Shown in pieces: positions 46,135 to 52,052 of a stretch of DNA of 64,000 nucleotides (positions are counted from its first letter, which is position 1; every line of letters begins with the position of its first letter). Made by a program: the position numbers and the translations under genes. Source of the stretch: Streptomyces lincolnensis (GTDB lineage: Bacteria > Actinomycetota > Actinomycetes > Streptomycetales > Streptomycetaceae); the NCBI RefSeq assembly GCF_001685355.1, contig NZ_CP016438.1, positions 10,230,001 to 10,294,000 of the forward strand, given 5' to 3'. The notes below the pieces were generated by a model, which searched no databases, was not told where the DNA came from, and saw nothing but the letters and a program-made list of their open reading frames with translations.

Positions 46135-46452
46135 CTAGTGCAGGTAGCGGTAGACGGTGGAGGTCGATACCCTGTTGTCTCGGGCGAGTTGGGCCAGGCG
46201 GGTGCCGTCGAGGAACCAGCGCAGGACGAGCACCGCCTGCCGGAAGCAGCCCAGCGCACGCCGTCCCTTGCGGGTTCCGGCCACGACGCGGTGATCGCGC
46301 AGCTGCGCGCGTGGGTGGAAGACGAGCGCGATCCTCACCTCACCGATAAAGCCAACCAGGTCGTCCGCGAGATGCGGTTGGTCCTCGCTGTTGGACCGGC
46401 GCCTTCCCCACCTGTCACCGCGACATACCCACGGCGATACCAACCTGGCCAA
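46135..46452 (-). pseudogene. Transposase N-terminal fragment
   Basis: The frame ends RRALGCFRQAVLVLRWFLDG then TRLAQLARDNRVSTSTVYRY LH and stops. It is the HTH beginning of an IS5/IS1182-like (DDE_Tnp_4) transposase; the catalytic part is missing. Confidence 0.55.
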
Positions 46453-46570
46453 GACCTACTAGGCGGCTGCCACGATCGCCGGCGCGCGATCCGCGCGGCG
46501 AATGACGTCCCAACTCCGTTCCCGCTCCGCTCCTCTTCCCGCTCCTGCCCGGCGTCTGCTGGCCCGGACG

Positions 46571-46588
46571 TTTCGAAGTTTCTCGAAA
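46571..46588. promoter_or_regulatory. Inverted repeat upstream of the tandem peptide genes
   Basis: TTTCGA (46571) and TCGAAA (46583-46588) flank AGTTTC. GAAA/TTTC palindromes of this kind are repressor sites in Streptomyces carbohydrate-gene promoters; here it lies about 110 bp before the first peptide gene and outside the duplicated unit. Confidence 0.35.
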
Positions 46589-46700
46589 TGCTGGATCGGC
46601 CGACGCCGCCCTCCAAGAATCGTGTCCCAGTCGCTGTTTCGCGCATCTGTATCAGTGACCGCTCGAAGCGGCACCGGATTCCGGCAATCAGGAGAAGAAA

Positions 46701-46817
46701 ATGCGTAAAGCCGTACTCGGTTTGTTCGTTGCATTGGCGGCTGTGCTCGCGGTAGCGCCGTTCGCCGGTGCTGACCAGACTGAGACCGTAGCCTGCTGCG
46801 GCCCTGTCCCGAAGTAG
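46701..46817 (+). CDS. Small secreted Cys-Cys peptide precursor, copy 1
   Basis: 38 residues: MRKAVLGLFVALAAVLAVAP, then FAGADQTETVACCGPVPK. AGGAG lies seven bases before the ATG. Basic n-region, hydrophobic core and an A-x-A-like site (FAGA/D) predict Sec secretion and a mature peptide of about 14 residues, DQTETVACCGPVPK. The vicinal Cys pair may form a disulfide or be modified. Copy 2 differs by four synonymous changes and only two amino acids, a sign of selection on the protein. No modifying enzyme or exporter gene adjoins it. Could act as a signal, toxin or surface peptide; unknown. Confidence 0.75.
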   Translation: MRKAVLGLFVALAAVLAVAPFAGADQTETVACCGPVPK

Positions 46818-46905
46818 TGGGTACTCACCGTTAGCGCGCTGTTTCGCGCATCTGTATCAGTGACCGCTCGAAGCGGCACCGGATTCCGGCAATCAGGAGA
46901 AGAAA

Positions 46906-47022
46906 ATGCGTAAAGCCGTACTCGGTTTGTTCGTTGCATTGGCGGCTGTGCTTGCCGTAGCGCCGTTCGCCGGTGCTGACCAGACCGAGACCGTAGCCTG
47001 CTGTGGCCAGATCCCGAAGTAG
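46906..47022 (+). CDS. Small secreted Cys-Cys peptide precursor, copy 2
   Basis: 38 residues with the same signal sequence as copy 1 and mature end DQTETVACCGQIPK. Differences from copy 1: CTC/CTT, GCG/GCC, ACT/ACC, TGC/TGT silent; CCT/CAG (Pro to Gln) and GTC/ATC (Val to Ile). Its own AGGAG lies at the same spacing. A hairpin terminator follows at 47056, so both copies can form one short transcription unit. Confidence 0.75.
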   Translation: MRKAVLGLFVALAAVLAVAPFAGADQTETVACCGQIPK

Positions 47023-47055
47023 TGGGTACTCACCGCTAGCGCGATCTTGTAGCGA

Positions 47056-47081
47056 GGGTCCGTCAGCTTGCTGGCGGGCCC
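47056..47081 (+). terminator. Rho-independent-like terminator of the peptide genes
   Basis: 11-bp stem (GGGTCCGTCAG with CTGGCGGGCCC, two G-U pairs in RNA), four-base loop CTTG, followed by TTTCCTT. It is 33 bases after the second peptide stop. Confidence 0.8.
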
Positions 47082-47198
47082 TTTCCTTCGTTCGGAACGG
47101 TGAGCGGACGGAAGCCGGCCGCACCTGATCACACGGCGCGGGGCACCGCTCGCCTTCCGCGACAAGCTCCGAGACCGCCGGCCTACGAGCAGGCGCGA

Positions 47199-47330
47199 CG
47201 TCAGCCGGTGGTCGGCGCCTTCCGCGTCCACTGGCTCGTTCGAGGGATCTTGTGGGTCAGACGCCGGGTCATCATGGTGATGAGTGCCCAGTTCAGGTGT
47301 GCTTCGGATTCTCTGAACTACCGAGATAGC
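47199..47330 (-). pseudogene. Transposase C-terminal remnant
   Basis: The minus frame SEAHLNWALITMMTRRLTHK then IPRTSQWTRKAPTTG and stop resembles the end of IS4/IS5-type transposases (H-L-x-W-x-x-x-M-x-M-T-R-R-L). Everything upstream is missing. Confidence 0.4.
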
Positions 47331-47731: not shown

Positions 47732-48736
47732 TCAGTCTGCTGGGGTGGCGGACAGGAGTTCGAGGAGGGCCATGCCTCGGGCCGTGGCCCGCAAGCGGAC
47801 GTGTTGGCCGTGTCGTTCGCGTTCCAGCAGTCCTGCCGCGGCAAGCTGATCGCAGTGGTAGGTGGCGGTGCTTGGGCTGATGTGCAGGCTGCGGGCGAGT
47901 TCGCCGACTGCGGGCTGGCGGGTCAGCTGCCGCAGGATCGCTGCCCGTACGGCTCCCAGGATGAGGACGAGCGCGGCATCTGCCGGGGCGGGGCTGTCGG
48001 GGGAGGCACCGGTGATGTGGCCCAGGCCGGGCAGGGGGTATCCGATCCAGAAATGTTCCGGGTGTACGGCGTCGTACAGGCCGGCCCGGTGGCCGGAGGC
48101 CAGGGGCATGAATATGAGGCGGCGATTGCCGAGTTCTGCGGGTGCTCCGGGGTCGCAGGGCGGCAGCTGCAATACGCCGTCGCGGTAGAGGACTTTGGAG
48201 TTGAGGCCGGCCAGCACGGGGGCGAGGCTGCCGGTGACGGTGGCGAGCCCGACGCGTTCCATTTCCCGTCCGATCAGGCCGTCTGCCCGCTTCCATAACG
48301 GCTCGAATGCCTCCCAGACGGAGGTGACCACGTGCTGGTAGGCCGTGAGGTAGTCACGCGGCGAGTCCAGAACCCTCCGCAGGGCCGGAGGCGGTGAGAC
48401 GGGACTTTGCGCAGCCATATCGTCGGCGAACTCGTCGGAGCTGAGCGACATCAGCTGGTCCAAGGTGGCCGACATCTTCGTGCTGCGCAGCTCGGAGGTC
48501 AGGGCCAGGCTGTCCGGTATGACGACATGTGCCGTGGAAAGCAACGTGCGGACGAGGGGCACGGCAGCAGCGGGAGCGGAGTCGTGGACGGTCCTGCGCC
48601 ACAGATCAGGTACATCGACAGGATGATCACCGAGAACACCCAAGAGCAAGGTGAACAGTGTGGCACCGGGATGCCTGACCACATCGACCTGCACTTGCTC
48701 CAGCGGACCCAGCCGCACGATGCGCTCCGCCGTCAT
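47732..48736 (-). CDS. ArsR-family regulator with large N-terminal sensor region
   Basis: 334 residues. The N-terminal 240 residues (DUF5937-like; HPGATLFTLLLGVLGDHPVD, VWEAFEPLWKRADGLIGREM) precede a C-terminal winged HTH: ILRQLTRQPAVGELARSLHI then SPSTATYHCDQLAAAGLLER. This reversed order is typical of large Streptomyces ArsR-like regulators. No metal-binding Cys set. The target gene is not obvious; 270 bp upstream (48737-49007) contain nothing recognised. Confidence 0.8.
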   Translation of the reverse strand: MTAERIVRLGPLEQVQVDVVRHPGATLFTLLLGVLGDHPVDVPDLWRRTVHDSAPAAAVPLVRTLLSTAHVVIPDSLALTSELRSTKMSATLDQLMSLSSDEFADDMAAQSPVSPPPALRRVLDSPRDYLTAYQHVVTSVWEAFEPLWKRADGLIGREMERVGLATVTGSLAPVLAGLNSKVLYRDGVLQLPPCDPGAPAELGNRRLIFMPLASGHRAGLYDAVHPEHFWIGYPLPGLGHITGASPDSPAPADAALVLILGAVRAAILRQLTRQPAVGELARSLHISPSTATYHCDQLAAAGLLERERHGQHVRLRATARGMALLELLSATPAD

Positions 48737-50307: not shown

Positions 50308-52052
50308 GGGCTTGCCGGGAAACAAGTCGTGGCTTCCAGCTGCGCGGATCGTTGTTCTGGTATGGGGAGACCGGAGGGGATCGAGGCCGCCTTGGCTGCG
50401 AAGTTCGAGGCGTTGTTGCCGCATCTGGATGAGCGTCAGCGCCGGCTGGCCATAGGGGCGGAAGCGCGGTCGCTGGGGCATGGCGGGATCAGGCTCGTCG
50501 CCGCTGCGGCCGGGGTCCGGGAGGGCACGGTCTCGCGCGGGGTGGCTGAACTGGAGTCCGGCCAGGACCCGTTGGGACGGGTCCGCCGGGCGGGCGGAGG
50601 CCGGAAGAAGGCGACCGAGGTCGACCCGGGGCTGCGGCCCGCGCTGCTGGCTTTGGTCGAGCCCGACGAGCGGGGTGACCCGATGTCGCCGCTGCGCTGG
50701 ACGACGAAGTCGACCCGGAAGCTGGCAGCGGAGCTGACCCGGCAGGGCCACCGCGTCTGCGCCGACACAGTCGCCGGCCTGCTGCGGGAGGAAGGCTTCA
50801 GTCTGCAGGCCAACGCCAAGACCATCGAAGGCTCTCAGCATCCGGATCGGGACGCCCAGTTCCGCTACCTCAACGAGCAGGCACGCGATCACCGGGACGC
50901 CGGAGACCCGGTGATCAGCGTGGACACCAAGAAGAAGGAACTGATCGGCGACTACAAGAACGCCGGGCACGAATGGCGGCCCGCCCGGCAACCCGTGAAG
51001 GTCAACACGCACGACTTCCCCGGCCAGGCCGAGAAGGCGATCCCCTACGGCATCTACGACATGGCGGCGAACACCGGCTGGGTCACCATCGGCACCGATC
51101 ACGACACGGCGGCGTTCGCTGTCGCCTCGATCCGCCGCTGGTGGCAGGCGGTCGGCCGGCACGACTACTCCCGCGCCCGCCAGCTGCTGATCACTGCCGA
51201 CGGCGGGGGCTCCAACGGCTACCGCACCCGCGGCTGGAAGACCCACCTGGCCGACCTCGCCGCAGAAACCGGTCTGGAGATCACTGTGTGTCACCTGCCG
51301 CCCGGCACATCGAGGAACAAGATCGAACACCGGCTGTTCTCCCACATCACCATGAACTGGCGCGGGAGACCCCTGACCAGCCACGAAGTCATGCTCCAGG
51401 CCATCGCCGCGACGACCAGCCGCACCGGCCTGACGGTGCACGCCGAACTCGACAACGCTGAGTACCCCACCGGCATCCGCATCGGGGACGAGACCATCGC
51501 CGCCCTGCCCATCACACGCCACCGCTTCCACGGAGACTGGAACTACACCTTCCACCCCGCAGATCACCAACCGCCCCCGCACCTTCCCCGGCAACGCGGG
51601 CGGCCAGCCGACGGCTCTCGCCCCCTCACACTCCACGACCTGCAGCACCCCGAACTGACCGGCATGCCCCGCAAGCAACTCAGCGACCTCACCGACATCT
51701 TGATCCCCGCGCTGGAAGAGCACCGCGAACAGGTCCGCCACGCAGCCCGCGGCGGACCACGCCGCGTCGCCCCGGGCACCGGCCGCAAACCCACACTCAC
51801 CCCCGCCGACCAGATCCTGGTCACCATCCTCTACCTGCGAAAACACAGTCTTCAGGAGCTTCTCGGCCAGCTCTTCAACACCACTGCCATGACCATCAGC
51901 CGTGCAGTGAAAGACGTCCGCCCGCTCCTGGAAGCCAACGCAGTCTGCATCCCCGCCTCAACAGCCCGTTTCCGCACGCCAGACGACGTCGCCCGGTTCC
52001 TCGACCCTGACGAAACCAAGATCAAACCAACGTGTTGATTCCAGGCAAGCCC
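50308..52052 (+). mobile_element. ISAzo13-type insertion sequence
   Basis: 1745 bp with terminal inverted repeats beginning GGGCTTGCC at both ends (left 50308, right ending 52052) and continuing imperfectly (GGGAAACAA against TGGAATCAA). Flanked by TTA on both sides (50305-50307 and 52053-52055), a likely target duplication. It contains one intact transposase gene and lies against an IS5 remnant. The 280 bp to its left (50028-50307) hold no recognisable gene. Confidence 0.85.
50362..52038 (+). CDS. ISAzo13-family transposase
   Basis: 558 residues from ATG 50362. N-terminal HTH part (EARSLGHGGIRLVAAAAGVR, EGTVSRGVAELESG), then the core with DPVISVDTKKKELIGDYKNA (first Asp), LLITADGGGSNGYRTRGWKT (second Asp region) and CHLPPGTSRNKIEHRLFSHI (Glu). 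This is the ISAzo13 order. It has an unusually long C-terminal extension (LTPADQILVTILYLRKHSLQ, ELLGQLFNTTAMTIS), an HTH resembling another transposase's N-terminus. No frameshift; may be active. Confidence 0.85.
   Translation: MGRPEGIEAALAAKFEALLPHLDERQRRLAIGAEARSLGHGGIRLVAAAAGVREGTVSRGVAELESGQDPLGRVRRAGGGRKKATEVDPGLRPALLALVEPDERGDPMSPLRWTTKSTRKLAAELTRQGHRVCADTVAGLLREEGFSLQANAKTIEGSQHPDRDAQFRYLNEQARDHRDAGDPVISVDTKKKELIGDYKNAGHEWRPARQPVKVNTHDFPGQAEKAIPYGIYDMAANTGWVTIGTDHDTAAFAVASIRRWWQAVGRHDYSRARQLLITADGGGSNGYRTRGWKTHLADLAAETGLEITVCHLPPGTSRNKIEHRLFSHITMNWRGRPLTSHEVMLQAIAATTSRTGLTVHAELDNAEYPTGIRIGDETIAALPITRHRFHGDWNYTFHPADHQPPPHLPRQRGRPADGSRPLTLHDLQHPELTGMPRKQLSDLTDILIPALEEHREQVRHAARGGPRRVAPGTGRKPTLTPADQILVTILYLRKHSLQELLGQLFNTTAMTISRAVKDVRPLLEANAVCIPASTARFRTPDDVARFLDPDETKIKPTC

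Follow-up and report, generated by a model that had tools for sequence, protein, structure and literature searches.

Near one chromosome end of Streptomyces lincolnensis, two short and almost identical reading frames follow each other in a tandem repeat, which raises the question whether they are genuine genes and, if so, what a duplicated peptide of 38 residues could be used for. The DNA analysed, hereafter the window, is a stretch of 64,000 nucleotides covering positions 10,230,001-10,294,000 of a 10.32-Mb single contig, and some 42 kb separate the pair from the end of that contig.

Architecture of the tandem array

TRF detected a single array at 46632-47043, with a period of 205, 2.0 copies and 96% matches. 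The features of the pair and its flanks are as follows (window coordinates):

46135-46452, minus strand: upstream ORF whose helix-turn-helix similarity is weak (HTH_23, E 0.0016, short of the Pfam cut-off), possibly a transposase remnant
46632-46836, plus strand: repeat unit 1 (205 bp) with 5' stretch, peptide gene 1 and 3' stretch, from TRF and unit comparison
46659-46671, plus strand: small hairpin before gene 1 (CCGCT-CGA-AGCGG), with a copy before gene 2 at 46864-46876
46690-46694, plus strand: ribosome-binding site (RBS) of gene 1, AGGAG, 6 nt before the ATG
46701-46817, plus strand: peptide gene 1, 38 codons, MRKAVLGLFVALAAVLAVAPFAGADQTETVACCGPVPK, supported by homologues
46701-46772, plus strand: predicted signal peptide codons of gene 1, 24 residues ending in A-G-A, from the sequence and the family pattern at -1/-3
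46773-46814, plus strand: codons of predicted mature peptide 1, DQTETVACCG with tail PVPK, from putative cleavage after AGA and the contrast of core and tail
46837-47043, plus strand: repeat unit 2 (end as given by TRF), from TRF and unit comparison
46895-46899, plus strand: RBS of gene 2, AGGAG, 6 nt before the ATG
46906-47022, plus strand: peptide gene 2, 38 codons, MRKAVLGLFVALAAVLAVAPFAGADQTETVACCGQIPK, supported by homologues
46906-46977, plus strand: predicted signal peptide codons of gene 2
46978-47019, plus strand: codons of predicted mature peptide 2, DQTETVACCG with tail QIPK, on the same grounds as for peptide 1
47054-47083, plus strand: terminator after gene 2, 13-pair stem; a similar hairpin follows several relatives
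47085-47308, minus strand: flank that recurs at further peptide loci and in its last part resembles the end region of an IS4/5-type transposase gene of locus L032

Both leaders begin with positive charge, continue with a hydrophobic stretch and carry AGA ahead of DQT, which is a Sec-like arrangement. The 69 bp ahead of the ATG are identical between the units, which differ at 8 positions in total. Four of these are silent third-position changes in leader and core, three are adjacent tail bases whose exchange turns P into Q and V into I, and one is the base after the stop codon. The first-pass annotation had described a duplication with two tiny genes, each with its own AGGAG site, signal peptide and DQTETVACCG(PV/QI)PK end, closed by a terminator, and these elements were confirmed, the signal peptides as Sec-like leaders. 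Its count of four silent changes and two tail replacements also stands, although its label 'conservative' does not, as P to Q is not a conservative exchange. A search of the source genome found no additional copy; the third match had an E value of 2.6 and lay inside a 502-aa frame.

The terminator is located about 30 nt past the stop codon of gene 2 and is followed by IS-like remnants. A 58-nt stretch folds with -26.6 kcal/mol (z -2.9; 1 of 200 shuffles was equally stable), and the site was also reported by a simple scan, for which 0.5 such sites are expected by chance. Hairpins before first-in-array genes (n = 34) had a mean stability above that of shuffled sequences, with none of 100 shuffle sets reaching the mean, and those before downstream genes (n = 14) showed no excess (93/100). 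Taken singly, the hairpin of gene 1 has a z of 0.7.

Distribution of related peptides

Across 295 genomes of the genus, a search at protein level yielded matches in 9 at E values up to 0.001, counting the source genome itself and G067, in which the only Cys-Cys copy is decayed. At family level, a search with a 13-row alignment (A1) matched 11 of 394 genomes and 1 of 17 genera; these 11 include decayed copies in G543 and G067 and, in G575, a large secreted-looking protein with a similar leader. At class level 4 of 394 genomes matched, one of them (G765) with an unrelated transporter-like frame. The family- and class-level counts may be low, as 19 first-look candidates per genome were scored. 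The matches in G765, G575 and G543 were set aside as weak. The named genomes contributed 22 loci, all from Streptomyces, and G573 has 12 matches.

In the protein database, 203 clusters were found at E values up to 0.1. Among the 120 clusters listed, all contain ACCG, none carries a Pfam domain, and the names shown are 'hypothetical', 'uncharacterized', 'lipoprotein' or 'putative secreted'. For the window peptide, no Pfam family scored above the cut-off (best E 0.13) and NCBIfam gave none, nor was there a match among plasmid records, phage records or PDB sequences. At the level of titles and abstract beginnings, no published description of an ACCG peptide family was found.

Homologues of equal length and frame occur in many species, so that the frames are real genes above chance expectation. 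Frame-breaking changes, named beforehand as evidence against the family, were looked for in 49 copies found by a motif search, which favours intact copies (decayed ones occur elsewhere): 48 reach a stop codon within their locus, and the remaining one is truncated at the locus boundary. The earlier proposal of a candidate new peptide family is supported by these homologues and by coding selection (see below). Its expectation that gene finders would miss such short genes was only partly right, since many relatives are publicly annotated as 'hypothetical protein'. The pair very probably belongs to a real family of export-type peptide genes. It is an unnamed family of small export-type Cys-Cys peptides, limited to Streptomyces in the present searches where the organism is known.

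The distribution is patchy, which suggests that the family is dispensable. Ten genomes have a match on a contig longer than 5 Mb, and in 7 of these the copy closest to a contig end lies within 250 kb of it (rough binomial chance 9e-6, with contigs assumed to be chromosomes, species not independent and the decayed copy of G067 among the seven). The decayed copy of G543, 309 kb from an end, was excluded from this count.

Conserved core and variable tail

The 120 listed proteins and the peptides from the loci, the latter retained only with ACCG, gave 156 distinct peptides, of which the commonest residues are MRKAVLGLFVALAAVLAVAPLAGA-DQTxTVACCG-tail. Alanine is found at -1 in 149 and at -3 in 134 of them, and 151 have small residues at both positions (our own rule). 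The predicted mature peptides have 14-18 residues and, in 151 of 156 cases, a net charge (K+R minus D+E) of zero or below. All but one of 48 copies have an RBS-like motif ahead of them. T-V-A-C was not taken as a lipoprotein signal, as the cysteine would be placed 8 residues behind the A-G-A site.

By pattern, 30 of the 156 tails end in P(K/R), 112 are longer and Pro-rich and 14 are of other types. The third tail residue is proline in 146. The six-residue tails (n = 104) comprise 25 types, and their positions are coupled (mutual information 1.25 vs 0.40 shuffled, not corrected for ancestry or 90% clustering). The idea that tails are shuffled independently of the leader lineage was rejected: the clustered proteins gave 7.1% sharing vs 6.7% shuffled, a test that is invalid because clustering at 90% identity removes neighbours with the same tail, and unclustered DNA gave 8.5% vs 1.8% (9/500 shuffles), which indicates some linkage. 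Tail and leader are linked, but loosely.

Selection on the coding sequences

Over 48 copies, pN/pS is 0.45 in the leader, 0.38 in the core and 0.97 in the tail (the set contains one duplicate, as one L023 gene recurs in L059). Over 13 tandem pairs the values are 0.48, 0.29 and 1.01, with three pairs of unequal tail length dropping out for the tail and the pair counts not corrected for relatedness. The tails are unlike in all 13 pairs. Outside the tail, the window pair has 4 silent changes and 0 replacements, which has a chance of about 0.006 under neutrality. The coding selection claimed in the first-pass annotation is borne out by both the family values and the pair itself. Judged from these substitution patterns, purifying selection is acting on the leader and the ACCG core, and the C-terminal tail appears to be either unconstrained or diversifying.

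Four recent pairs, picked because leader and core together carry no more than 1 replacement, show tail replacements at 15.5 of 48.2 sites vs leader-core silent changes at 11 of 105.7 (Fisher p 0.001, rounded counts). The corresponding figure of 0 of 11 replacements was discarded, because the pairs had been chosen for few replacements. The silent rate in the tail of these pairs is raised as well (5.5 of 17.8 sites, p 0.018), so that diversifying selection, relaxed constraint, local mutation and sequence exchange are inseparable. The core shows less silent divergence (pS 0.27) than the leader (0.49), possibly due to codon preference.

Flanks and neighbouring genes

A promoter scan found no sigma-70-type promoter in 46500-47200. 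The window pair shares pre-ATG sequence with L020, L022, L032 and L033. Between L020, L022 and L032 this homology covers roughly 106 bp, from about -106 onwards; at the window pair it begins only at -67, so that part of the upstream block common to its closest relatives is missing. An aligned CAACC motif, present before 11 of 34 first genes, is a possible ECF-sigma element; the CAACC part is missing at the window pair because homology there starts at -67. The shortened block makes expression of the window pair uncertain. On the downstream side, L032 is homologous beyond the terminator and up to about 47308. An IS-rich character of this region is suggested by an ISAzo13-family transposase gene at 50329-52038 on the plus strand (NF033519, E 9e-173) and transposase-like remnants nearby. 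The minus-strand frame at 47732-48736 encodes a 334-aa protein with a MarR/ArsR-like winged helix in its C-terminal part only.

Neighbour proteins were compared over 22 relative loci and the window (143 of 144 proteins scanned; the one left aside, L041:7770-8048, overlaps a peptide gene). Among the 25 commonest of 146 Pfam families, none matches more than 4 of the 143 proteins; HTH_31 matches 3 and HTH_3 matches 2. PADLOC gave 19 families, each in at most 2 of 143. Clustering of our own gene calls for the same loci placed no family in more than 4 loci, and a generally conserved neighbour gene was rejected, the LysR link described next being confined to one group of loci.

A LysR gene or remnant, recognised via flank homology, adjoins peptide genes in seven related loci of six genomes, the window not being among them. 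These are found in S. tauricus, S. fructofermentans, G615 (two loci, of which one is a fragment), G109 (peptide genes on both sides of LysR), S. scabiei (a transposase gene interrupts LysR) and strain MA5143a (only the N-terminal part of LysR). The LysR of L028 was not counted, since it is a different one with 32% identity. The best LysR match in the source genome has 51% identity and lies 0.5 Mb from the window pair.

In the clade of the minus-strand LysR gene at L021:6430-7479 and its orthologues (L075-L081), Cys-Cys peptide genes adjoin some members and SH3-like secreted proteins adjoin others. LysR matches of at least 75% identity occur in 7 of 295 genomes. The neighbours are peptide genes in two of them (G087 and G109), SH3-like proteins in two more (G200 and G027) and, in G139, an SH3-like repeat protein with a weak Pfam match. 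These five clear cases may reflect a single regulatory site at which small secreted payloads are exchanged, a model not directly applicable to the window pair. The remaining two are weak cases: secreted-looking frames of no clear family lie about 1.2 kb from the LysR match in G232, cut by the locus end, and about 1.0 kb from it in G281, with a 327-residue frame between.

Proposed function

We prefer the reading, with a probability of roughly 0.4, that the genes encode secretory propeptides whose core provides a fold and whose tail sets recognition, in extracellular recognition or signalling. The Sec pathway would export the propeptide and signal peptidase I would cut before DQT, freeing a peptide of 14 residues, mostly acidic, in which two cysteines are adjacent. 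For the predicted mature form DQTETVACCGPVPK, an internal disulfide would shift the mass by minus 2 Da. The ACCG core would supply a common fold or chemistry and the tail would decide which partner is recognised; tandem duplication followed by tail change could then create new specificities.

A use in extracellular recognition or signalling between cells, taken by itself, is a tentative assignment. It draws on the contrast in selection, the differing tails of all 13 pairs, the -1/-3 pattern, the low net charge and the LysR gene at seven loci. No receptor candidate was identified. More doubtful is a peptide-signalling repertoire consisting of a fixed exported core, a fast tail, tandem copies and, in part of the genus, a LysR-controlled site with exchanged payloads; the two weak LysR cases, G232 and G281, lower its odds slightly.

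The nearest rival of signalling is antagonism or enzyme inhibition, in which the peptide would bind a target of competitors or an extracellular enzyme and the tail would tune the target; a cysteine thiol could in this case ligate a catalytic metal. The patchy distribution with copies often near chromosome ends, the divergence of tails between tandem copies and the other small secreted-looking proteins beside close LysR orthologues, as expected for exchangeable payloads, are in its favour. However, the predicted mature peptide is acidic rather than cationic, and a recurring immunity gene is missing among the commonest neighbour families. We give antagonism an appreciable minority chance, and signalling is probably the more likely of the two.

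It is improbable that the window pair is a fading remnant with no present function in its genome. The shortened upstream block, the lack of a detected promoter, the transposase-like remnants in the flanks and the decayed copies in other genomes would fit such a fate, but both ribosome-binding sites, both frames and the terminator are intact and none of the four post-duplication changes outside the tail alters a residue.

Similarly improbable is a role in surface, metal or thiol chemistry, in which activity would reside in the adjacent cysteines, with tails free of constraint. This would account for the constancy of ACCG in the listed clusters and for a tail pN/pS near 1, as in a free end; the tail, however, is not free, given the proline at its third position and the few coupled types among its six-residue forms.

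Ldr and Ibs are tandem type I toxins, and SecM is an arrest peptide. A membrane-retained toxin of the former kind would match in length, hydrophobic stretch and tandem copies with an identical 5' stretch, but is very unlikely in view of the conserved A-x-A site and the conserved polar part behind it. No antisense RNA is known at this locus; an Rfam search gave only two matches, both far below threshold, and a new antisense RNA could escape such a search. The weakest reading is a SecM-like regulatory leader controlling a downstream gene: the C-terminal ends are Pro-rich and several loci (L009, L014, L038, L041, L055) have a gene for a secreted-looking protein after the peptide gene, but downstream genes vary between most loci, no downstream gene was found on the transcript of the window pair, which meets a strong terminator and then IS-like remnants, and 38 codons seem too short for a stalled leader to engage Sec.

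Comparison with known systems

The accessible part of one source describes RRNPP propeptides as small Sec propeptides of 10-100 residues, with the last 4-10 residues usually being the signal, and actinobacterial signals as typically small molecules (PMC10075063). Like RRNPP propeptides (Phr, PapR and NprX of Bacillota), the ACCG peptides have a conserved front and a variable short tail, and the 38 residues of the window peptides are within the RRNPP range. Export of the ACCG peptides by Sec is a prediction from the leader architecture and from the A-x-A type site of 151 of 156 peptides. RRNPP systems have an adjacent TPR receptor of 250-500 aa, whereas no TPR protein is encoded by the 8 neighbouring window ORFs scanned, and none is among the 25 commonest families of the 143 neighbour proteins. 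Membership in RRNPP therefore fails for the window pair. The conserved ACCG core and the Streptomyces host are further differences. Propeptides with several differing pheromones are known, in which, as far as the accessible part of the source describes, the repeats sit inside one propeptide (PMC11343458), whereas whole genes are duplicated in ACCG loci.

RiPP precursors such as AmfS/SapB are also short ribosomal peptides containing cysteine. The ACCG peptides differ from these in their Sec-like leader and in the lack of an adjacent modifying enzyme: none was found in the 8 window ORFs, in agreement with the first-pass annotation, or among the 25 commonest neighbour families.

With a gene-encoded, export-type family of this kind, in which the core is constant and the tails change, synthetic peptides would offer a cheap way to test peptide recognition in Streptomyces. 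Should the role be antagonism or inhibition instead, about 200 nameless protein clusters (120 listed) can still be described in common terms and assigned a predicted mature product.

The SH3-like secreted proteins (our own label), some of which share their kind of signal peptide with the ACCG peptides, differ from these in a mature domain of about 100 residues, without ACCG and with no Pfam family above the cut-off. A form of 153 aa with the signal peptide of the Cys-Cys family is encoded at L015:960-1418, at L016:1501-1959 and on the minus strand in L018. Full-length matches including this kind of signal peptide occur in 3 of 295 genomes (G063, G067 and G087), which also carry peptide genes, one of them decayed in G067; in G063 a peptide gene lies about 400 bp upstream of the start of the 153-aa protein. 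The secreted-looking proteins of 167 aa that follow the peptide genes in L014 and L055 have no Pfam family and are homologous to each other, with 73.5% identity.
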